From Zhouia amylolytica (GTDB lineage: Bacteria; Bacteroidota; Bacteroidia; Flavobacteriales; Flavobacteriaceae), in contig NZ_FPAG01000006.1 in the NCBI RefSeq assembly GCF_900116365.1, forward strand, positions 186,001 through 250,000: 64,000 nt of DNA, given 5' to 3'. This document shows positions 47,704-63,551 of the stretch, piece after piece. The notes beneath the pieces were generated by a model, which searched no databases, was not told where the DNA came from, and saw only the letters and a list, made by a program, of their open reading frames with translations. The first letter of the stretch is position 1. Every line of letters begins with the position of its first letter. Position numbers and translations under genes: made by a program.

Positions 47704-50265
47704 CTAGAAATAAATTCTGAAACTAAAATTAGGAGTAGTTCCCAGAGAGACGTAATCGACTTGTTGAATTTTATTGCTTTTTTCGTCTTCAAGACGATAA
47801 TAGCGGTCTAAAGTATTTTTTTCATTTAGAATGTTTAATAACGAAACTCCAATAGACCCATTTATACTTTCGGAAAAATCAAATTTGTATGTTGCTGAAA
47901 AATCAGTTCTTAAATAGTTTGGTAGATTACTGCTATTTGGTTCTTCGTAATTGATGTAATTTCCCGTGTTGCTAACGGTAACTGAATTGTTCTCCCTGGG
48001 TTTTGTGTAGGGTTTGCCTGTGCGCCAATTTGCTCCTAAAGCGAATTTTATACTGTTTAAGGTATAGGTGCCTGCAAATGACATTGAGTGTTTAATGTCA
48101 AGGTTATTTGGGAACGTAGCAGGAGTAAGGGACTTGAAGGTGTAATTGTTATTATTGTAGGTGTAGCTTAGCCAGGTGCTAAAAGTTTTAGTCTTTTTAT
48201 TGATCAGGAACTCAATACCATTAACTTTATAACTTCCACTTGTGCGCTGAAATTGATTTTGATTTTGGAACCCCTGGTTCGACGTGGTAATACCATCTAC
48301 TTTTTTATAAAAACCTTCAATGGCCATGTATAAATTGTCGTGGTTGTAGTTAAAACCAATGGAGGCCTGTTTACTCTGAGTAACGGGCAAGTCTTTATTG
48401 TTGGCAAGTATCCACCTGCGTTTTTCAATTCCCAGAAAATCCCTTTGAAAGTCTATGATCTGGTTCGTTACCTGATTCTTCATTTCGCCGAGAATTTCAA
48501 CCGAAAATTTAGTATTGAGTCGCTGGTTAAAACTTACTCTGGGTTCTAAAATAAATTTTCCAAAACGTTCAATGTAATTTAATCTTCCTCCTAATTTTAA
48601 ATATGTATTCTTGTTTGCGGACAGGAAGTTCATTTCGGAAAAGAGCGCATGATTTCGGACTACACCTTTAATTTTACTGTAAAAGAAAGGATTGTTAACG
48701 TTTTGAATATTTGTGATCCCAACCTCATAGAATTGATACCCGTTTAATAGAGAAATAGAATGACTTGCTTTATATTTTGTCGTTAATTTTCCACCAAGTT
48801 CCAGGACCTCGTTGTTTTGAATCAGTCTCTGATCAGTCTCCAGAGCTAAATTAGTTGCATCGAGGTTATAATTGGTATAATAACCACTTATAGTTGTAGA
48901 GAATCGCGTATTCCAATAACTTTTCAGGCTACCTCCAAAAGCAAAATTAGTTTGATCCAAAGAACTTTGTTTGGTTTCAGAAGTGTCTTTTTGTGTAAGG
49001 GTTTCTTCATAATCAAGGTGATTGTTCATGGCAATAATATTAGCCCTGAACTGATGTTTTTCATTAGGATCATAAAGTATTTTTAAACTTGTATCATAAA
49101 AGAAGAAGTCTTCGCTTTGTGTACTGTTTTTAGCAACTTCTTCATTTTCGAAGTTGGTTATTTTAGTGTCTTGGAAAGCCCTGTCGAAAAAGCTGTTGTA
49201 GGTAGGTGTTTTAAGCCAGTCGGTGATTGATCTCCTTGCCGAAACCTGAATTCCCAACTTTTCGTTTAGAGGGATGTGTGCATATCCATCGGTACTTATC
49301 AGGTTGAACCCGATGCCCCCAAATGCTTCGCCTTTCAATTGATTGAATGTTTCAATATCTATCGTGCCGCTAACACCATCAGTATAGGAGGCTGAGGTGC
49401 CATTTTTAATGATAGATACTTTTTCTGTTAAATGTGGGTTGAAAGCAGATATTAAGCCGAAAAAATGGCCGGATTGATACATCTTGATCCCATCCCACAG
49501 CAAAAGATTCTGATCGTTAGTACCGCCTCTAATGTTTATGTTTGATACCGTTTCACTGATACTTTCAACTCCCGGTAAGGCTTGTGCTGTTTGTAATACA
49601 TCTGGGTCCGTTAGGCCAGGTAATATCCCAAAATCTTCGGTGATTATCTCAATACTCCCACTTCTTTGTTTGGAAAGTCCGTTGGTTAAATACTGATAAA
49701 CCACTACTTCACTAAGTAATTCTGTTCGGTGATCCATATAGATATGTTCACATGAATCTGGTTTTAGGATTATTTTCTTTACTTCTATGAAGTAATTGTT
49801 GTAACCCAGAGACTGAATTTTAACGATGCTGTTTCTTGCTATTTTATTCAATCTGAAATAACCTGATTTATTAGAGATCGTCCCTTTTCCGTTAATGGTG
49901 ACGGAGGCTCCTTCAATTGGTGAATTTGAAAAAGTTTCATATATATAACCACATATGTCTACAGTAGCACTTTTGGTAATTATATAATTGTTGGAATCTA
50001 TTTGTTTGATCTCTAAATCTGTATTCCTGATTATATAGTTAAGGGATGCTTCTAGTGATGGTTGAGGCTTATATGCAAGAGTGATATTTGCGATAGTTTC
50101 ATCCGCATAGGAAAAAGACACCTGGTGCGTAGTTTCAATCTCCTTCAAAGTTTTTATTAATGCAACCTGAGCGACTTCTATATCTTGTCCCAATGAAAAA
50201 GAAGTAAAAATAAAGGCGGTAAAGTATATGAGTTTCAGGGCAGCCTTCTTAAATTTAGTCTGCAT
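47704..50265 (-). CDS. TonB-dependent receptor with N-terminal STN signalling domain
   Basis: An 853-residue outer-membrane receptor. After a signal peptide (1-26) comes an STN-type signalling domain (about 30-98; IETTHQVSFSYADETI and NYIITKSATV). A carboxypeptidase-regulatory-like domain follows (about 103-185; IEGASVTINGKGTI), then the plug (about 185-310; INIRGGTNDQNLLLWDGI) and a barrel ending in FSFRIYF. The STN domain marks a transducing receptor that signals ligand uptake through the FecR and ECF sigma encoded upstream; its start overlaps the fecR stop by 11 bp. The ligand is unknown; iron complexes are not implied by sequence. Confidence 0.9.
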   Translation of the reverse strand: MQTKFKKAALKLIYFTAFIFTSFSLGQDIEVAQVALIKTLKEIETTHQVSFSYADETIANITLAYKPQPSLEASLNYIIRNTDLEIKQIDSNNYIITKSATVDICGYIYETFSNSPIEGASVTINGKGTISNKSGYFRLNKIARNSIVKIQSLGYNNYFIEVKKIILKPDSCEHIYMDHRTELLSEVVVYQYLTNGLSKQRSGSIEIITEDFGILPGLTDPDVLQTAQALPGVESISETVSNINIRGGTNDQNLLLWDGIKMYQSGHFFGLISAFNPHLTEKVSIIKNGTSASYTDGVSGTIDIETFNQLKGEAFGGIGFNLISTDGYAHIPLNEKLGIQVSARRSITDWLKTPTYNSFFDRAFQDTKITNFENEEVAKNSTQSEDFFFYDTSLKILYDPNEKHQFRANIIAMNNHLDYEETLTQKDTSETKQSSLDQTNFAFGGSLKSYWNTRFSTTISGYYTNYNLDATNLALETDQRLIQNNEVLELGGKLTTKYKASHSISLLNGYQFYEVGITNIQNVNNPFFYSKIKGVVRNHALFSEMNFLSANKNTYLKLGGRLNYIERFGKFILEPRVSFNQRLNTKFSVEILGEMKNQVTNQIIDFQRDFLGIEKRRWILANNKDLPVTQSKQASIGFNYNHDNLYMAIEGFYKKVDGITTSNQGFQNQNQFQRTSGSYKVNGIEFLINKKTKTFSTWLSYTYNNNNYTFKSLTPATFPNNLDIKHSMSFAGTYTLNSIKFALGANWRTGKPYTKPRENNSVTVSNTGNYINYEEPNSSNLPNYLRTDFSATYKFDFSESINGSIGVSLLNILNEKNTLDRYYRLEDEKSNKIQQVDYVSLGTTPNFSFRIYF

Positions 50266-51169
50266 AAATCACAACCGTTTTGTCATCTTTCAGTTTATAC
50301 TGTAATTGTAACGGGAGGGTTATGGTTTTTAGTGCCTTGTTAATATCATTATGGTTAAACTCTCCGGTAAAATGATAATTAAGGTCAACATTGTTTGCGC
50401 TTATAGTCACATTAAATATACGTTCAAACTCTTTCAGAACCATTTGATATGGAATGCTGCTGAACTTGCTTCTGTTTTGTAGCCAATCTGGTTGGTTTGA
50501 TAATAAATGATCTTCGTTTTCTGTAACTATCCCGTTAATGACCAGGAATGATTTCCCTTTAGTGATTAGTTTGGTGAGGTCGTTGTATTGGACTCTTACG
50601 ATCCCTTCAAAGCATTTTATTTCATAGAAATTCTCACGATTCTTAACGTTAAATTGCGTTCCAACGACCGAAACAATTCCATCCTTGGTTATGACATCAA
50701 ATTTTTCCCCATGGGCCACTTCAAAAAAAGCTTCACCATCTAATTTCAATGCTCTTCTCTTGTTCCATTGTTTTTTACTGTATTCAGCTTTTGAGCTTGC
50801 ATTTAATTTTACAATGGAATGGTCTGGAAGATTAAAAGTTTCCTTCTTACCCTTCTCTGCAATAACAACAGTATTTGATTCATTGAAGAATAAAACCGTG
50901 GTTAGAATTACCGCAATGGTAGCGGCTATACCTGCTATGGCCTTCCAGGGTTTAATCTTTTTTATTTTAGGTTGCTTGTTAGTAAGACCAGTCTTCTTTT
51001 TTAAGCTTTCTAATTGCACATCTTCATTATATAAGGGAGATTGAAAAAGTGCAGTTTTTGCTATAATTTTTTCATATACCGATAGATCTTCAAGCTGTTT
51101 TAATGCTTGAAGTTCATCGGGAGTAATCTCTCCGCTTAACCATTTGGCAAGTAGGTGCTCTTTATTCAT
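50255..51169 (-). CDS. FecR-family anti-sigma factor
   Basis: A 304-residue inner-membrane regulator. The N-terminal cytoplasmic part is about 75 residues (LLAKWLSGEITPDELQALKQL). One membrane segment spans about 76-95. The periplasmic FecR domain contains DHSIVKLNASSKAEYSKKQW and GEAFFEVAHGEKFDVIT, and a C-terminal DUF4974-type domain runs from about 235 (FTGEFNHNDINKALKTI). It relays the signal from the receptor STN domain to the sigma factor. The sigma gene lies 78 bp upstream and the receptor gene overlaps its end. Confidence 0.93.
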   Translation of the reverse strand: MNKEHLLAKWLSGEITPDELQALKQLEDLSVYEKIIAKTALFQSPLYNEDVQLESLKKKTGLTNKQPKIKKIKPWKAIAGIAATIAVILTTVLFFNESNTVVIAEKGKKETFNLPDHSIVKLNASSKAEYSKKQWNKRRALKLDGEAFFEVAHGEKFDVITKDGIVSVVGTQFNVKNRENFYEIKCFEGIVRVQYNDLTKLITKGKSFLVINGIVTENEDHLLSNQPDWLQNRSKFSSIPYQMVLKEFERIFNVTISANNVDLNYHFTGEFNHNDINKALKTITLPLQLQYKLKDDKTVVIYAD

Positions 51170-51247
51170 TTTGTAATTTCCTCTAAGTCTTTCAGTCTAA
51201 CTTCTTATTCTATAACAGGTTAAAATTATAATACCCTACTGTAGAAG

Positions 51248-51763
51248 TCATATATTTTCAATTTCTTTTCTTAAACTAATCAATGCTCCGCTAATTCGCT
51301 TTTCAACAGCTTTTACCGAAATATTTAGCATTTCTGCAATCTCTTTGTATTTTTTCCCGTCGATGCGATTTAACAGGAAGGCGGTCCGTTGTGCTTCCGT
51401 AAGATTGGCAATGGCGGTTTGTAGTTTCATCATATACTCTTGTTCTTCGAGTATGAATTGTGGTGTTTCATTTGAGGCTTTATTTTTAGGTTGTTTTTCT
51501 GCATATTTTAATACAACCTTTTGGTGAGCGACGGTGTTTAAAAATGCATTATTAGCTACGGTATATAAAAATGACTTTGCCTTTTCGAAAGGTACATTTT
51601 TACAGTTAGTCCAGAGCTTTATAAAGGCCTCTTGGGTAATATCATTGGCTTCGTTTTCATTCCCGCATTTGTAAAAAATAAAGTTCCGAATGCTTTTACT
51701 ATAGGTTCTGAATAGCCTGTTAAAATTGTGTTCTTCGCAAACTGAATTGTTTATTTGGGGCAT
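51248..51763 (-). CDS. ECF RNA polymerase sigma factor (FecI type)
   Basis: A 171-residue sigma-70 of the extracytoplasmic-function class. Region 2 includes FRTYSKSIRNFIFYKCGNENEANDITQEAFIKLW (read in parts) and region 4 has AQRTAFLLNRIDGKKYKEIAEML with a helix-turn-helix (ISVKAVEKRISGAL). Region 3 is absent, as usual. Together with fecR and the STN-bearing receptor downstream it forms a cell-surface signalling cassette. A lipoprotein gene starts 98 bp away on the other strand, a likely regulatory target. Confidence 0.93.
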   Translation of the reverse strand: MPQINNSVCEEHNFNRLFRTYSKSIRNFIFYKCGNENEANDITQEAFIKLWTNCKNVPFEKAKSFLYTVANNAFLNTVAHQKVVLKYAEKQPKNKASNETPQFILEEQEYMMKLQTAIANLTEAQRTAFLLNRIDGKKYKEIAEMLNISVKAVEKRISGALISLRKEIENI

Positions 51764-55928: not shown

Positions 55929-57671
55929 TTACATATCGAATTTATATGAAACACCTGCTAACACCTGAAAACCTTGTACCATGTAGTTAGACCAACGGGT
56001 GTATTCATTATTTGCAATATTATTTGCTTTGAGGTATACAGAAAACTGATCATTGATGCGATATCCTGCCTTTGCATTAATGTCAAAGAAGCTGTCAAGA
56101 TCCACTACCTGCATATTAAATGTCTCTCCGGGGTTTGTGCCTGTATCTTGTCTGAAAAGCCCTGAACGTTCACCAGTGTAGAAGATGTTAGCTCCCAGAA
56201 ACCACTTATTGTTTATCTGGTAATCCATAAATAAAGAACCTTTAATACTCGGCAGGTTCCAGGCCTCTTCTTCATCATCTGTATTGTAGTCTAATATTTC
56301 AGCATTTATTCCTAATTGAAAATCTCTGTTTACATCAACGCTGATTTCTCCAAAAACTGAAATGGTAGTTATGTCATCATATATGAGTCCGAAAGAATTC
56401 GCATAAGCATACCCTTCAGTATTATAATTTATGGTGCCCGTTTCCGGATTCATGGCAAAGAGCGGTTTGTTTGACTCGTTGATATAAGATCCTCTGAGGT
56501 TGTAACTTAAGTTCGGTAAAAACTTCCCCTTTACTCCCACATACCCATCATATGTTTTGTCTGTTGGTAGAATATTTAATGTTGGGGAAATGTATGGGTT
56601 TTCCTCTTGAAAACCATGATAAGAATTTTGCTTCAAATCGCCTTCAAGGCCACCGTATACCGTTACATATTCTTGGACTAACCTATATGAAGCAGTAATA
56701 TTTGGATAGAAGTAAATATCGCTGTCGCTATTTTCTATATCAAATTTATAGGCAACCGTAGCTCCCAGGTTCACAGTTAAGTCATCTTTTAAAATGACCA
56801 AATTAGGCGAGGCCTTGGTGATTAGATTGCTGTATTTAAGCTGTTCTGTGGTGTAGTAGTTGCGATCGAATTTACCGTTTAGGTAATCAAGGGAAAGGTT
56901 GAGGTTGATCCATTCTTCTCCAACCGGAAGCTCAAATTTTGGATTTAATACGATGTTGCTCTCTCCCGAGCTAAAGGCATCAAAAAAGTATCTTAAGCTT
57001 ACATCCCCTCCCGTGAAGAAAGAATCTTCAATAACTAAATCGGCACCTAAATTCGCAGTATAGTAACTTTGTTTTTCATCGATACTGTTAAGGGTCGATT
57101 CATCGTAAAATCCTAAAGGAACACCATACCAGTTATATAATTGATGGCTAAATCCACCCTCTACACCCCAATCAATATAACGATCGTCTCTATTGTATGC
57201 AGCAGCTAATTTTGTTTTGAAAAACTTATCATCCAATTCAACCCCATCAATACCACCTTGTGAAGAATGGTGGTTTAATGAAAAATCTAAAGTTTCGTCT
57301 CTGTTTAAAGCGCGACTTGTATAGAAATCTGCCGTAGCATTATTGTAATTCCCAACTGCCAGCGATGCATAAGAATTATAAACGGATTCTCTTGGAGCTC
57401 GTTTTAACCCTGTTGCTTTACCTTTGGCGGGTACAAAAGTCGACGCTACCGGTACTGAAAATATATTATACGATATTTTCTTTTTGGCTGCCGTTACAGA
57501 GTCATCTAATCTCGGTGTTTCTTTAATTTTAAAGGCATCTGATAATGTCGGAGAATATGGTTTAACAACATTCACCACTTCAGTTCCAATATTTTTTTCT
57601 TTCTCTTTCTCTTGAGAAAGCAGTGTAGATGAAGTTGAAAGTATAATTAGGGTTATGAATAGCTTTCGCAT
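55929..57671 (-). CDS. TonB-dependent-receptor-like beta-barrel without a plug
   Basis: A 580-residue outer-membrane barrel. Signal peptide (1-20) is followed by a short acidic-basic segment and TEVVNVVKPYSPTLSDAFKIK, where a TonB-dependent receptor would start its plug. No plug signature (no LRGG-like or DGIxxxG element) follows; beta-strand repeats begin near residue 95. The C-terminal half has YRINDQFSVYLKANNIANNEYTRW, typical of TonB-receptor barrels. It is shorter than usual receptors. It follows the TPR gene after 45 bp on the same strand, so the two probably form one functional unit. Confidence 0.78.
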   Translation of the reverse strand: MRKLFITLIILSTSSTLLSQEKEKEKNIGTEVVNVVKPYSPTLSDAFKIKETPRLDDSVTAAKKKISYNIFSVPVASTFVPAKGKATGLKRAPRESVYNSYASLAVGNYNNATADFYTSRALNRDETLDFSLNHHSSQGGIDGVELDDKFFKTKLAAAYNRDDRYIDWGVEGGFSHQLYNWYGVPLGFYDESTLNSIDEKQSYYTANLGADLVIEDSFFTGGDVSLRYFFDAFSSGESNIVLNPKFELPVGEEWINLNLSLDYLNGKFDRNYYTTEQLKYSNLITKASPNLVILKDDLTVNLGATVAYKFDIENSDSDIYFYPNITASYRLVQEYVTVYGGLEGDLKQNSYHGFQEENPYISPTLNILPTDKTYDGYVGVKGKFLPNLSYNLRGSYINESNKPLFAMNPETGTINYNTEGYAYANSFGLIYDDITTISVFGEISVDVNRDFQLGINAEILDYNTDDEEEAWNLPSIKGSLFMDYQINNKWFLGANIFYTGERSGLFRQDTGTNPGETFNMQVVDLDSFFDINAKAGYRINDQFSVYLKANNIANNEYTRWSNYMVQGFQVLAGVSYKFDM

Positions 57672-57716
57672 ACGACGTAAAATTTTTAAATCAATCTATT
57701 TTTATAAAACGTGCCA

Positions 57717-60700
57717 TTAATCTTGATCGTTTGGAGATACTGATGAGTTTCTCAACGATTCCTGAGTTTTAATTTTTTGAAGCTCAGTTTCTGCTTCCTC
57801 AACAATTTCGGAGTAAGTCGCGAAATTGGTGATTACATTTTCTAGTATGTATGTAGCTTGAAAAGCGTCATCGAGAGCATGGAAGTTCTTAGCCATAATA
57901 ATAAGTCCTTTGGCTCCAAATTCTTTATATCCTGCATAATCTTTCGCCAGTTTTTGAACAGCAGTATTAGAAGCTTCGTACAACCCGTCCTTATTTTTAA
58001 AGTATGCATCGTAGTAAAGAGCCTCCGCAGCTAATGCTCCTGTAGCAATTTTTTGTACCTCCTGATAGGCAGTTTTCGCCAAATCTTCATTATTGGTTTT
58101 AATGGCTGAGCGGGCAATCATTATTTGAGCATCACTTTTAATTCTATTGTCTATTTTTGGATTGCTCAGTACTTTTTTTGCATAAGTGAGAGTTTCACTG
58201 TAATTCCCCAAATCATAATTGATTTTCATTAGGTTCGATTGTGCAAAAGTTATATTTTGAGGGTAATCGGCCTGTGTTTCTAATTGTTTTAATACAGGGA
58301 TGGCAGCTTCTTTTTGTTCATTGTCGATATATATTTGACTTAATCTGGCCAGGGCTTGTTCTGTAAATTCATTTCTGTCTTTAATTACATTTTTATAATG
58401 TGGAATTGATTTTTCAGGTTCACCTGTATTGAAATAAGATTGAGCTAAATAGAAATTTGCATTTAAAGCATGGCCTCCGTTAGGGAATTGTTTTAAATAA
58501 TCTTCGAATCCTTTAATTGAGGCTTTGGTTTCACCTTGAACAAACTTACGTTCCGCAGATTCATACGCCGCATTTTCAATTTCGCTATCTGAAATTTCAA
58601 CAAAATCTAACTGCTTTACCCAGTTGGCATATTCATTTACGCGTCCTTCATCGACATAAATCATTTTAGCCGTAGAGACTGCTTGAACTGCTTCTTGGGT
58701 GTCCGGATAGTTTTTAACGACCTGTTTGAATTTTATAAGAGCATCACTGTTCTGACCCCCATTATAATATACAAGTCCTTCTTTGAGTATTGCTTTGGGA
58801 ACATACGAGCTCATTCTGTATTCTTCAGCCAGTTTATTGTAAGCGGCAATTCCTTTACTTGTTTGATTGTTATTCACATAAGTATTTCCCAGTTCGTAAT
58901 AGGCATCATCCCTCAATGTAGATTTAGGATAATTGCTTACAAATTTTTCGAGTTCATCAATTTTTTGACTCGTTCTGTCTACGAAGCCATAACTAATGGC
59001 TTTTTGAAAGTGAGCATAATCGGTGTCAGCTTCGTTTAATGTAATTGCTTGGTTGTAAAATTCCATTGCAGGCCAGTATTTACTGGTTACAAAATGACTG
59101 TCCCCAAGCCTGAGGTAGGCATCGTTTAAACGCTGTAGGTCTTGCTTTTCTTTGGTAGTATATTTTTTAAAATATGCAATGGCCTGATCGTAATTCTTTT
59201 GCTTGAAATAAGCATACCCTAAATTATAAAATAAGTGTTTGTATTCGGGTGTTGAAGTGGATGCAGAGTTTTGTTCAAATTGTTTAAATCCAACCACTGC
59301 TTCTGAATACTTGTTTAGAATATAATCTGCTTCTGCATTCCAGAAAGTTGCTCTTGCCGTAAAAGATTGGTCTTGAGCTTCTTTAAGAGATTTGTCAAAA
59401 TAATCAATGGCTTCTTGATAGTTTCCGTCATTCAAAAGTTCAAGTCCACGGTAAAATGCCACTTTCTGATAGGTGGTTTTGCTACTAAAATTTCTATTCT
59501 TTTCCAGAAGTTCCAGTGCAGCATCATAATTCTTTGAAGTAATATATGAATCCACCAGGAGTTCCTGTATCTCCTGTTTGTTAGGGCTGTCAGGGTAATT
59601 GTTTATAAAGTTTGTGAGTACCTGAGGTACATTTTCATAAGGGTTTCCTATTTCGTAACTCAGCTTGGCATAGTTAAGGGCGGCGTCTTTTTGAATTTGA
59701 GCTTCGAAATTCATTTGTGAAGCATTTTTAAAAGCATTTAAGGCTTGTTGCTTCTTGTCGGTTTTAATGTAACATTCAGCAAGGTGATAATATGCGTTTT
59801 GAGCAACGGGATCGTTTCCGTCAATGATTTTATTAAATTGCCCAATAGCATTTTCAAAATCATTTTGTTTGTAATATGCATATCCAAGCTGATAGAAGTC
59901 TACGTTATTCCATTTGCCGCTTTTACCTTTGTATTCTTTTAAGTACGGAATGGCTTCATTATATTGTTGTAGATTAAAATAACTTTCTCCAATAATTTTA
60001 TTAAGCTCTGACTTCTCTTTTGGGTCAGCTTTAGGTAATTGTTCCTGGGCCAATGCAATAGCCTTTTTGAAGTCTCCTTTTTTGAAGTTCATGTCGGCTT
60101 GATAATAAGAGAGCTTGTCATTTAAATTGTCATTGCCGGAGACTTGACTGAAATAAGAGTCGGCTTCACCATAGTTGTCACTTTCGTAAGCAATATATCC
60201 GATATAATATTTTGCTTGTGAACCATATTCTTCTGAAGTAATAACCTGATTAAGGTAGGATTTTGCGTCTTTATATTTTCTGGCTTTAAACAAAGAGTAG
60301 CCCTTTTTAAAATTAAAGGTTTCTCTTTCGCTATAGCTCATGCTTTGGTCTTCAGCTTTGTCAAACCATTTGAGTGCATTGGCATATTTACCCTGATCAA
60401 AATAATAATTGGCAACATCTATAAAGGCTGAATTACGTTTGGTAGATGTAGGGTAGGTGTCAACAAAGTTTTCCATCAATCGCTCAGCTCCCAGTTGATT
60501 TAGCCTGATAGCAGCATTCGCAATATAATAGGAGCAATTTGCCTTGGTTTCAATATCGGTGGTTTTTTCCTGAACTTCACTAAAAATTCTCTGTGAAGCC
60601 TGATATTGACGTTCATTGTATAATTCCAGTGCTTTTAGGTAATTCTTAGAGGGGTTGGTATAGATGGCCGATTCTTGAGCGAATCCGGAAAGCGATATTG

Positions 60701-60737
60701 TAATAATAGAAAGGTAAGCAAGTTTACGAATCTTCAT
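57717..60737 (-). CDS. large tetratricopeptide-repeat protein, exported
   Basis: A 1006-residue protein with a signal peptide (MKIRKLAYLSIITISLSGFAQ) and TPR units along nearly its whole length. Typical repeats are YYIANAAIRLNQ, FKKGYSLFKARKYKDAKSYLNQV, YYQLGYAYYKQNDFENAI and LGYAYFKQKNYDQAI. TPR arrays are protein-binding scaffolds; in this position the protein is probably periplasmic and could hold the barrel encoded directly downstream. It starts a minus-strand operon, divergent from the 61119 metalloprotease across 381 bp. Confidence 0.9.
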   Translation of the reverse strand: MKIRKLAYLSIITISLSGFAQESAIYTNPSKNYLKALELYNERQYQASQRIFSEVQEKTTDIETKANCSYYIANAAIRLNQLGAERLMENFVDTYPTSTKRNSAFIDVANYYFDQGKYANALKWFDKAEDQSMSYSERETFNFKKGYSLFKARKYKDAKSYLNQVITSEEYGSQAKYYIGYIAYESDNYGEADSYFSQVSGNDNLNDKLSYYQADMNFKKGDFKKAIALAQEQLPKADPKEKSELNKIIGESYFNLQQYNEAIPYLKEYKGKSGKWNNVDFYQLGYAYYKQNDFENAIGQFNKIIDGNDPVAQNAYYHLAECYIKTDKKQQALNAFKNASQMNFEAQIQKDAALNYAKLSYEIGNPYENVPQVLTNFINNYPDSPNKQEIQELLVDSYITSKNYDAALELLEKNRNFSSKTTYQKVAFYRGLELLNDGNYQEAIDYFDKSLKEAQDQSFTARATFWNAEADYILNKYSEAVVGFKQFEQNSASTSTPEYKHLFYNLGYAYFKQKNYDQAIAYFKKYTTKEKQDLQRLNDAYLRLGDSHFVTSKYWPAMEFYNQAITLNEADTDYAHFQKAISYGFVDRTSQKIDELEKFVSNYPKSTLRDDAYYELGNTYVNNNQTSKGIAAYNKLAEEYRMSSYVPKAILKEGLVYYNGGQNSDALIKFKQVVKNYPDTQEAVQAVSTAKMIYVDEGRVNEYANWVKQLDFVEISDSEIENAAYESAERKFVQGETKASIKGFEDYLKQFPNGGHALNANFYLAQSYFNTGEPEKSIPHYKNVIKDRNEFTEQALARLSQIYIDNEQKEAAIPVLKQLETQADYPQNITFAQSNLMKINYDLGNYSETLTYAKKVLSNPKIDNRIKSDAQIMIARSAIKTNNEDLAKTAYQEVQKIATGALAAEALYYDAYFKNKDGLYEASNTAVQKLAKDYAGYKEFGAKGLIIMAKNFHALDDAFQATYILENVITNFATYSEIVEEAETELQKIKTQESLRNSSVSPNDQD

Positions 60738-61118: not shown

Positions 61119-62708
61119 ATGAAAACTAAATTTTATTTAAAAACTGTTTGTCTGTTTGCGCTTCTATTCATTGTTTCATGTTCTAAGGACCAATTCTCGG
61201 AAACGGAAGAAGTGTTAGTGCCTGAAGCCGTTGGAAAGCCTGTCGGCAATGAATGGGAGGATAACCCTTATAAACTCAATGTGGTTTATTTTGTTCCCAA
61301 TGATATGACTCCTGTTTCAAACTATGAATCCCGTATTGAGGAGATTATGTTTGACGCTCAGGAGTTTTTTGCTGTAAATCTTGACAGGGAAGGTTATGGC
61401 AGGACTTCCTTTGGGTTGAACATTCGCAAGAATAATGGTAAGCTCAACATCATAACGGTTAATGGCCAACAAGGAAAAAGTGCCTATCCTTATAGTGGTG
61501 GCGGTGGTACCGTGATTAATGAGTTAGAAGCTTATTTCAATCAGCATCCTAATGAAAAGAAAAGTGAGCATACGCTTGTATTTTTGCCCTCTACTTCCGG
61601 CGATCCATTAAATCCCGGAGGTGTTCCATTTTATGGCTTAGGAAAATATTGTTTCGCTTTAGATTACGAATATTTTGATTTACAATATTTAGGTGAAAAT
61701 ACCAATCTGGGCGACTTAGCGACTAAATGGATCGGTGGGATGGTTCATGAATTAGGACATGGACTCAATGCTCCGCATAATAAAGAGTGGAGTAGTTTAC
61801 AGGCAACTTTAGGAACTGCTTTAATGGGATCTGGTAATTTTTCATATGGTAAAAATCCAACTTTTATTACAGCTTCTAATGCTTCGATTTTTGCAAATTC
61901 ACAACCATTTAGAAATGATACCAGATCCGATTGGTATTCTGGTGTTACTGCTAATATTACAAAGTTGAAAGGAAGTGTTCAAAATAATAAGATTGTTATT
62001 TCTGGTAATTTCAGCTCTTCAGGAACGGTATCCGCGATTAATGTATGGCATGATCCGTATCCTGCCGGTGGTAATAAAGATTATGACGCACCATCCTTCA
62101 CCTCAATCCCCATTGGTTCGGATAGTTTATACATTGAGAGTCCCCTGTCTGAATTTTATAATTTGGATGGTCAGTATCAACTTAGGATCGGATTTATCCA
62201 TGAAAATGGCTCTCGTGTTACCAGAGCTTACGAGTATGAGTTTGTAAATGGCGTTCCTAATATAGAGGTGATTAACACGAAAGATTTATTGGACAGATCA
62301 GCATGGTCCATTATTGAGGTAGACAGTGAAGAAGATACCGGAGCTGCTTCTCAAATGTTAGATGGAGACCTGTCGTCTGTTTGGCATACGGAATGGAAGA
62401 GTAGTTTGCCTGATCACCCCCATTATTTTGTTTTAGATATGGGTGTGGTAACATCTGTAAAAGGGTTCGCATTCGAAAACAGGTCCAACTTAAATGGAGC
62501 GATAAAAGATTTTGAAATGTTTAAAAGCGATGATGGTTCAAATTGGACCAGTCTGGGAACTTATAGTTTGAATCAAGTGCAGAATATACAATATGTAGAC
62601 TTGTCGGCTACACAGTCTTTCAGGTATATGAAATTAGTTACCCAAAATTCCCACGGAGATTTCAATTATACCCATTTAGCAGAATTAAACGCTTACAGTG
62701 ATCAGTAA
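61119..62708 (+). CDS. surface metalloprotease lipoprotein with discoidin-like C-terminus
   Basis: A 529-residue lipoprotein (lipobox Cys 21 in IVSCSKD, followed by acidic residues). The zinc motif HELGHGLNAPH (210-220) is of the HExxHxxNxxH kind, giving two zinc His and a third at 220; the catalytic Glu is E211. Residues about 275-380 form a beta-rich middle region. Residues about 391-527 look like a discoidin / F5/8 type C domain (MLDGDLSSVWHTEW, HYFVLDMG, FRYMKLVTQNS), which usually binds glycans or membranes. An extracellular, glycan-attached peptidase is a reasonable reading. It is transcribed alone and ends at a terminator. Confidence 0.82.
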   Translation: MKTKFYLKTVCLFALLFIVSCSKDQFSETEEVLVPEAVGKPVGNEWEDNPYKLNVVYFVPNDMTPVSNYESRIEEIMFDAQEFFAVNLDREGYGRTSFGLNIRKNNGKLNIITVNGQQGKSAYPYSGGGGTVINELEAYFNQHPNEKKSEHTLVFLPSTSGDPLNPGGVPFYGLGKYCFALDYEYFDLQYLGENTNLGDLATKWIGGMVHELGHGLNAPHNKEWSSLQATLGTALMGSGNFSYGKNPTFITASNASIFANSQPFRNDTRSDWYSGVTANITKLKGSVQNNKIVISGNFSSSGTVSAINVWHDPYPAGGNKDYDAPSFTSIPIGSDSLYIESPLSEFYNLDGQYQLRIGFIHENGSRVTRAYEYEFVNGVPNIEVINTKDLLDRSAWSIIEVDSEEDTGAASQMLDGDLSSVWHTEWKSSLPDHPHYFVLDMGVVTSVKGFAFENRSNLNGAIKDFEMFKSDDGSNWTSLGTYSLNQVQNIQYVDLSATQSFRYMKLVTQNSHGDFNYTHLAELNAYSDQ

Positions 62709-62763: not shown

Positions 62764-62858
62764 TAGTTCGTTGAATGAATAGATTTTTATAAAAGAAATT
62801 TGATCACAATTTTTATTAAAATTTATTGTTAGTACATTTACCATGTAATATTTACACT

Positions 62859-63551
62859 ATGAATCAGGACAAAAATCAAATTCTGGAACTTCGGGATGTT
62901 GCAGTTTATCAGCGCGAAAATCTAGTTTTAAGTGAAGTAAACCTAAGTATTGATGAAGGTGAATTTGTGTATTTGATAGGTAAAACAGGAAGTGGTAAGA
63001 GTAGTTTTATGAAGACACTTTATGGTGATTTACCACTAACTCAAGGATCAGGTAGTATTGTTGGGTATGATTTAAAAGGGCTAAAAGAAAAAGATATTCC
63101 TTTTTTAAGAAGAAAACTTGGGGTGGTATTCCAGGATTTTAAATTATTACCTGACAGGAATGTGAATGAGAACCTGATTTTTGTCCTAAAAGCTACGGGG
63201 TGGAAGGACAAGGAGAAAATGAATAAAAAAATAGAAGAGGTGCTGGATAAAGTTGGGATGAAAACCAAAGGCTTCAAATTTCCGCATCAATTGTCTGGGG
63301 GGGAGCAACAGCGTGTTGCTATAGCCAGAGCATTACTGAATGATCCTGAACTGATTTTAGCAGATGAACCTACAGGAAACCTTGATCCTCAAACCAGCGT
63401 TGAGGTGATGAAAGTGTTACAGGATATCAACAAAAATGGAAGAACCATTTTAATGGCAACCCATGATTATGCTTTATTGTTAAAATATCCGTCCAAGACC
63501 TTAAAATGTGACGGGAGTAAGGTTTTTGAAGTGGTACAAAAGAATGTTTAA
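62859..63551 (+). CDS. ftsE: FtsE-type cell-division ABC ATPase
   Basis: An upstream ATG-like start at 62826 would add LVHLPCNIYT, which resembles no family N-terminus; the ATG at 62859 gives [18 protein letters not shown] and 230 residues, normal for FtsE. Walker A is GKTGSGKS (41-48), the signature LSGGEQQ is at 145-151, Walker B is LILADE (165-170) followed by PTGNLDP. FtsE with FtsX activates septal peptidoglycan hydrolysis. ftsX is not adjacent: the next gene is on the opposite strand and overlaps this stop by 4 bp. LolD-type ABC ATPases are similar, so the name is likely but not certain. Confidence 0.82.

Follow-up and report, generated by a model that had tools for sequence, protein, structure and literature searches.

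A Plug-less TonB-Receptor-Type Barrel and Its TPR Partner as Candidate Parts of a Tol-like Machine in Bacteroidota

What is the role of an outer-membrane barrel that resembles a nutrient receptor, appears to lack the plug and is encoded next to a giant exported repeat protein? The question is raised by a gene pair in a 64,000-nucleotide stretch of the genome of Zhouia amylolytica (contig NZ_FPAG01000006.1, positions 186,001 to 250,000), called the window below. A preliminary description, made from the letters of the window, had taken the pair for an unusual transporter or secretion element.

The Gene Pair in the Window

The features under study are, in positions of the window:

55929..57671, minus strand: predicted plug-less 22-strand TonB-receptor-type outer-membrane barrel, 580 aa, unnamed family (ORF, AlphaFold model, fold searches)
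57378..57614, minus strand: tail at the N-terminus of the mature barrel, predicted to be disordered, residues 20-98 (pLDDT; mature start by eye)
57717..60737, minus strand: exported TPR protein of about 26 repeats, 1006 aa, first gene of the pair (ORF, TPR families, model)
62826..63551, plus strand: FtsE-like ABC ATPase, divergent neighbor of the TPR gene (best NCBIfam model, position)

In the ORFs of the window, the TPR gene comes first and the barrel gene follows 45 bp downstream on the same, minus strand. Both products have a signal-peptide-like start and the TPR protein has no lipobox, as judged by eye, and the earlier claim of an exported TPR protein of 1006 residues directly upstream of the barrel stands on the shared strand, the 45-bp spacing and that start. 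Between the TPR and FtsE-like genes lies an exported 529-aa ORF (61119-62708) with an HExxH stretch and a discoidin-like C-terminal part, and a row of ORFs at 47704-51763, sigma factor-like, FecR-like and plug-bearing TonB receptor-like, resembles a surface-signaling cassette (both by eye).

Fold of the Barrel

Sequence searches place the barrel in no family. Against Pfam at E<=1 there was a single weak match, to a kinase domain, and none to the Plug or TonB-receptor models; NCBIfam likewise gave no family above its cut-off, and a sequence search against solved structures found nothing at E<=10. The AlphaFold2 model, built from 80 sequences (pLDDT 76.9, pTM 0.74), contains 22 strands within residues 100-578, counted by hand on the DSSP line with strands broken by bulges merged, while residues 13-91 fall below pLDDT 50. 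The top Foldseek matches of the model are TonB-dependent receptors, the best being BtuB (3m8b; E 2.2e-17, TM 0.58 of the query), and VIA-align places residues 97-578 of the model on BtuB 135-594 (Z 20.5, rmsd 3.3, 389 residues). Such trimmed alignments cover the BtuB barrel beyond the plug, which ends near residue 132. Some untrimmed VIA-align rows, among which the top one is FhuA with Z 20.9, begin within the low-confidence tail, at model residue 45, and thus place a few tail residues on the plug region.

As the model contains no plug and the trimmed alignments lie beyond that of BtuB, the preliminary description of a 580-residue barrel with TonB-receptor-like strands and no plug holds: there is no Plug match, the tail is predicted to be disordered, and prediction of the barrel alone, proposed as a way to uncover a hidden plug, reveals none. 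The modeling confirms a predicted TonB-receptor fold without a plug, which carries a disordered tail of about 75 residues instead.

The TPR Protein

The TPR protein matched 28 Pfam families at E<=1, the best 25 of the 28 being mostly TPR models, and its predicted structure has 53 helices forming about 26 repeats (pLDDT 88.3), with a pTM of 0.45 that leaves the overall curve unsure. The tol_pal_ybgF model scores 203.1 bits over nine stretches (cut-off 90.1), and OM_YfiO (BamD) is also over its cut-off, at 89.4 versus 81.4. An identity with the T9SS protein PorW/SprE was rejected, the NCBIfam equivalog giving 91.9 bits versus a cut-off of 250. Length varies little, with 1003-1012 aa in 74 of the 77 complete copies at named family loci, and mean column identity is 51% for the TPR protein (alignment A2) versus 37% for the barrel (A1), the two alignments covering partly different genomes. 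At one locus (L102), the TPR ORF adjoining the barrel has 1708 aa versus the usual ~1000.

Distribution of the Barrel

A single-sequence search found the barrel in 139 of the 149 genomes of the window's family and in 122 of the 125 good ones, mostly as one full-length match; for comparison, the window's genome holds 61 Plug matches. Eight of the 10 family genomes without a match do not exceed 2.2 Mb; in reduced genomes the barrel may have been lost or may have diverged beyond the reach of such a search. With a profile (A7), a barrel match was present in 254 of 296 phylum genomes at 1e-12, and 72 of the 73 genomes of the window's class (the window's own, 29 of its family, six of its order and 37 other class members) were matched at E<=1e-100. 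As 28 of the 73 contributed rows to A7, they match by construction; among the other 45, the threshold was reached by 44. Matches in family f17 are all weaker than 1e-20 and were taken as generic. A looser tally of 235 of the 296 phylum genomes was discarded as an overcount: its low-scoring matches at the C-terminal end were ordinary receptors in the loci checked (L226, L227 and L236). Gene labels and counts, here and below, rest on reading by eye and home-made profiles. With 72 of 73 sampled class genomes encoding it, the absence of a family name for this outer-membrane protein is a plain annotation gap.

The sole class genome missing the 1e-100 threshold (G411; 1.9e-15) is 99% complete and in one contig. 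It also has no match to the TPR protein or to the TonB-type transducer described below; HU-CCDC81 was not lost along with these, and its match is retained.

Linkage of the Two Genes

The preliminary description had proposed to check co-occurrence and to ask whether the two genes separate in most relatives. In the window's family, a TPR gene adjoins the barrel gene upstream on the same strand at 50 of 50 loci, coming from 49 of the 139 genomes, and is directly upstream at 78 of 80 named loci, contig ends cutting off the remaining two; these family loci are the best-scoring ones plus 20 picked separately, most of which are distant. Outside the family, a TPR gene lies upstream within 4.5 kb of the barrel at 54 of 58 loci, with one gene between the two in L234. 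The 58 are what was counted from 63 loci selected for diversity and score, not at random; left out were three generic matches (L226, L227, L236), a placeholder (L110) and a locus at which the barrel, at 1.1e-15, missed the limit (L231). The four loci without an upstream TPR gene all belong to family f23, in which a TPR protein of ~1000 aa matching the same profile is encoded elsewhere in six of six genomes tested. The pair is thus kept together in most relatives examined, and the linkage extends across the phylum in these loci.

Neighboring Genes

Outside the window's order, many loci continue downstream of the pair with SPOR or HU-CCDC81-SPOR, MotA/TolQ/ExbB, ExbD/TolR and a protein with a TonB-type end, in that sequence, often followed by a Mur-ligase-type enzyme. 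Among the 58 loci outside the family, SPOR/HU was found downstream in 42, a TolQ-like gene in 25, a TolR-like gene in 25, a transducer in 34 and any of these in 44. TolQ-like genes linked to the barrel turn up in nine of the sampled families, though relatives are not independent, and chance is an unlikely cause of the linkage given that the window's 3.9 Mb genome has two MotA_ExbB genes. Such SPOR/Tol-like linkage is absent in 14 of the 58 outside loci as well as in the 20 wide and 80 named loci of the family; the window's genome has its TolQ-TolR-transducer-ligase run on another contig (L134) and an HU-HU-SPOR protein on a third (L136). The opposite arrangement occurs in family f23, where the barrel stays with the SPOR/Tol-like genes in four of four loci and the TPR gene is elsewhere, so that the closest tie of the barrel there is to the motor and not to the TPR protein.

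On the other side of the pair, the FtsE-like ATPase, for which FtsE is the best NCBIfam model with 245.2 bits (below the cut-off of 264.85), is encoded directly beside the TPR gene in 17 of 20 family loci and at most three genes before it in 70 of 78 named ones. Its position suggests a link to the machine considered below. Amidohydrolase, asparagine synthase and gyrase B genes are less regular neighbors in parts of the window's family.

Two further observations concern gene content. Four loci of other classes (L101, L102, L104, L109) have a gene of the UDP-glucose/GDP-mannose dehydrogenase type downstream of the transducer gene. In the window's genome, a 4HBT thioesterase gene comes after the one for the HU-HU-SPOR protein (L136:5982-7669). 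The relevant section of one review describes a thioesterase gene, ybgC, within the tol-pal operon of Escherichia coli (PMC8928145).

Motor and Transducer

The TolQ-like and TolR-like proteins match Pfam MotA_ExbB and ExbD above the cut-offs. Among the more specific models, all below their cut-offs, tolQ is best for the TolQ-like protein (3e-24, versus 6.7e-16 for exbB), while the TolR-like protein scores better with ExbD (3e-13) than with tolR (3.6e-10), which counts against settling Tol over Ton by sequence. The transducers share a layout, represented in profile A8, in which a single membrane stretch at the N-terminus is joined by a linker rich in Pro, Glu and Lys to an end domain of the TonB type. 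TonB_C is matched above its cut-off only in L107 (4e-7) and below it in L101 and L083, and no Pfam family was matched by the transducers of the window's genome and L087; the two transducer groups were joined by profile comparison (97.7%).

The transducer also co-occurs with the barrel in genomes where the genes are unlinked. A8 matched in 11 of 13 barrel-positive genomes, one of the 13 being the window's own, which contributed a row to the profile, and in none of the 11 genomes, G411 among them, that had no barrel match below 1e-20. In all 11 positives, the transducer gene is on another contig or hundreds of kilobases away from the barrel. The barrel-positive genomes without an A8 match are G187 and G434; the profile was built from class members, and misses in other classes may reflect divergence.

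No TolB or Pal gene was recognized in the gene runs. TolB_N has no match in the window's genome and is matched in 19 of the 296 phylum genomes, among them one of the 73 class genomes, and also in the control Bacteroides ihuae. A clean swap between TolB and the barrel was rejected: some TolB_N genomes also carry the barrel, which is therefore not a clean TolB substitute.

The Barrel Tail

Two segments of the tail are conserved, at about residues 30-53 and 66-86. Both lie above the barrel mean in alignments A1, A3 and A5 and only the first does so in the widest, A7; some rows of A1, A3 and A4 begin within the signal peptide. Within the family (A1, A5), the two segments thus surpass the barrel in conservation, as binding motifs should. 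Tails from several other classes contain segments such as PEVIVTGRE and PEFLITGQE, which have the look of a TonB box. We compared tails with their shuffles, using 30 plug-bearing receptors from nine genomes as the comparison set, and the signal was weaker by this test than by eye: 5 of 18 tails from other classes reached p<0.05 and 4 of 18 p<0.01, the numbers for the window's class being 7 of 35 and 2 of 35, and a TonB box in the window's own tail was not significant (p 0.63). Strand addition holds both TonB boxes and the N-terminus of TolB, according to the relevant sections of two reviews (PMC12905483, PMC8928145). Together with the TonB-box-like tails elsewhere, this common mode makes a docking of the barrel tail on the transducer plausible and, if real, ancestral.

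Discussion

A plug-less barrel is present in nearly every genome sampled from the class, and its company of motor, transducer, SPOR protein and long TPR protein leads us to a Tol-like reading. From the sequences at hand we think it somewhat probable that the barrel and the TPR protein do not form a transporter and that they belong instead to a Tol-like, division-associated machine driven by protons, as its arm in the outer membrane and periplasm. The ancestor of the barrel would be a TonB-dependent receptor; with its plug lost, it would have turned into a fixed anchor in the outer membrane. The transducer would grasp the barrel tail, or the TPR superhelix (like CpoB/YbgF in kind), by strand addition, as TonB does with TonB boxes and TolA with the TolB N-terminus, and the motor would use the proton gradient to pull on whichever is grasped. 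A SPOR protein may bring the machine to where the cell divides, and the outer membrane would then be drawn in along with the septum, and the barrel would do the outer-membrane job that TolB-Pal has in E. coli.

We count in favor of the Tol-like reading the plug-less fold, the linkage at outside loci, the co-occurrence with an unlinked transducer, the joint absence in G411 and the TonB-box-like tails in other classes. Against it stand the 14 of 58 outside loci and the family loci without linkage, the p value of 0.63 for the window's tail, the missing transducer matches in G187 and G434, the better ExbD score of the TolR-like protein, the transducers without a Pfam match, the TolB_N matches in some barrel-positive genomes, the family genomes (most of them small) without a barrel match, and the fact that G411 lives without the barrel.

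A TPR superhelix that collects a lipoprotein, protein or polysaccharide and an open barrel that passes the substrate out would form an exporter. In its favor, the two genes adjoin each other in almost all of the relatives examined; a dehydrogenase-type gene, of a kind used for polysaccharides, follows in four loci, and, in the relevant part of a study of BAM loss in F. johnsoniae, there is no evidence for surface lipoproteins piling up inside (PMC12611786). We nevertheless regard an exporter as improbable: the barrel has a 22-strand TonB-receptor fold and no Slam-, BcsC- or AlgE-type Pfam match, SPOR/HU or Tol-like genes lie downstream in 44 of 58 loci, and in f23 it is the TPR gene that is unlinked while the Tol-like genes stay. 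Nor did the neighborhood support the transporter or secretion element of the preliminary description, as the 20 neighbor proteins searched for their families include no transport or secretion gene save the ABC ATPase nearest to FtsE.

Closer to the original idea, that the TPR protein could close or gate the barrel from inside, would be a TonB-dependent uptake channel with the TPR protein as a plug supplied in trans and with its own motor and transducer. The nutrient-receptor fold, the TonB-box-like tails in other classes and the TonB-type transducer and ExbD-like protein alongside the barrel all suit uptake, but the SPOR and FtsE-like neighbors point to the wall and division, and the family genomes mostly have one full-length copy compared with 61 Plug matches; a single copy alone does not exclude uptake, which we consider slightly less probable still than export. 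Assembly or tethering of the outer membrane without force, with the barrel as a static anchor, the TPR protein as a scaffold for peptidoglycan or other partners and the Tol-like genes as mere neighbors, is in our view about as unlikely as the exporter. A scaffold fits the near-constant length of the TPR protein (1003-1012 aa, 74 of 77) and its conservation above that of the barrel, and the BAM complexes described for the phylum hold other subunits in the relevant parts of two papers (PMC12611786, PMC12578637). The linkage and the unlinked co-occurrence with motor and transducer across deep branches argue against a tether free of force.

Returning to the Tol-like machine, its fullest form is more tentative than the general reading: Bacteroidota and sister classes might run a Tol-type machine on a gutted TonB receptor, in which a barrel gripped by its tail is pulled through the giant TPR protein by a dedicated motor and transducer and is placed by HU-SPOR. 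The HU-SPOR protein could then tie the chromosome, the septal wall and the outer membrane together. A Tol-type proton-driven motor pulls the two membranes together in cell division, and Ton and Tol are usually two machines. If true, the proposal would make a separate solution to outer-membrane constriction, with Ton and Tol merged in one machine, and a nutrient receptor turned into a mechanical anchor. By word search, outer-membrane constriction in this phylum is not covered in three reviews of Tol or of Ton and Tol (PMC7391070, PMC12905483, PMC8928145), whose main text contains no word starting with 'bacteroid', and none of the matches listed was, going by its title and the opening of its abstract, a paper on the TPR-barrel pair or on a Tol-type system of the phylum. 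With these genes in hand, the question can be put directly to the test in a flavobacterium grown in the laboratory.

Comparison with Known Systems

Periplasmic TPR repeats and an outer-membrane barrel are paired in the exporters Slam, AlgK-AlgE, BcsC and PgaA, and the pair studied here resembles them in this respect. The barrels of those exporters are smaller, of other types and encoded with export genes. Neither the barrel nor the TPR protein gave a Slam-, BcsC- or AlgE-type Pfam match at E<=1, and, unlike in Slam, the TPR and the barrel are separate proteins and the fold is that of a TonB receptor.

The BAM of Bacteroidota (BamA, D, G, H and others) is similarly a phylum-wide outer-membrane machine with unusual subunits, but its BamG is described, in the relevant part of one paper, as a 14-strand FadL homologue (PMC12578637). 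We rejected a BAM subunit as an identity for our proteins: by their description in parts of two papers, the added subunits are a FadL homologue, surface lipoproteins and periplasmic proteins, and the words TPR and tetratricopeptide are absent from the text (PMC12611786, PMC12578637). The Pep25/Lbp26 colony-spreading genes were also rejected, TPR, tetratricopeptide, barrel and TonB being absent as words from the relevant part of their paper (PMC9950754).

With the TonB-dependent transporters BtuB and FhuA, the barrel shares the 22 strands and, in some other classes, TonB-box-like tails. It differs in having no plug in its model, a predicted disordered tail of about 75 residues, mostly one copy per genome and, where it is linked at all, SPOR/Tol-like neighbors.

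The likeness to Tol-Pal lies in the TolQ/ExbB and TolR/ExbD proteins, the transducer with its membrane stretch, linker and TonB-type end, the periplasmic TPR protein and the division-type neighbors (SPOR, FtsE-like); motor pair and transducer are encoded with the outer-membrane part in 25, 25 and 34 of the 58 outside loci and in a separate run in the window's genome. In the relevant sections of one review, the named holders of the classical tol operon include Chlorobi and not Bacteroidetes, and the Tol-Pal TPR protein CpoB, which has three repeats compared with about 26 here, binds TolA and couples wall synthesis to constriction (PMC7391070). The machine proposed here would not be Tol-Pal proper: no TolB or Pal is recognized in its gene runs, and at the outer membrane it would have an integral barrel.
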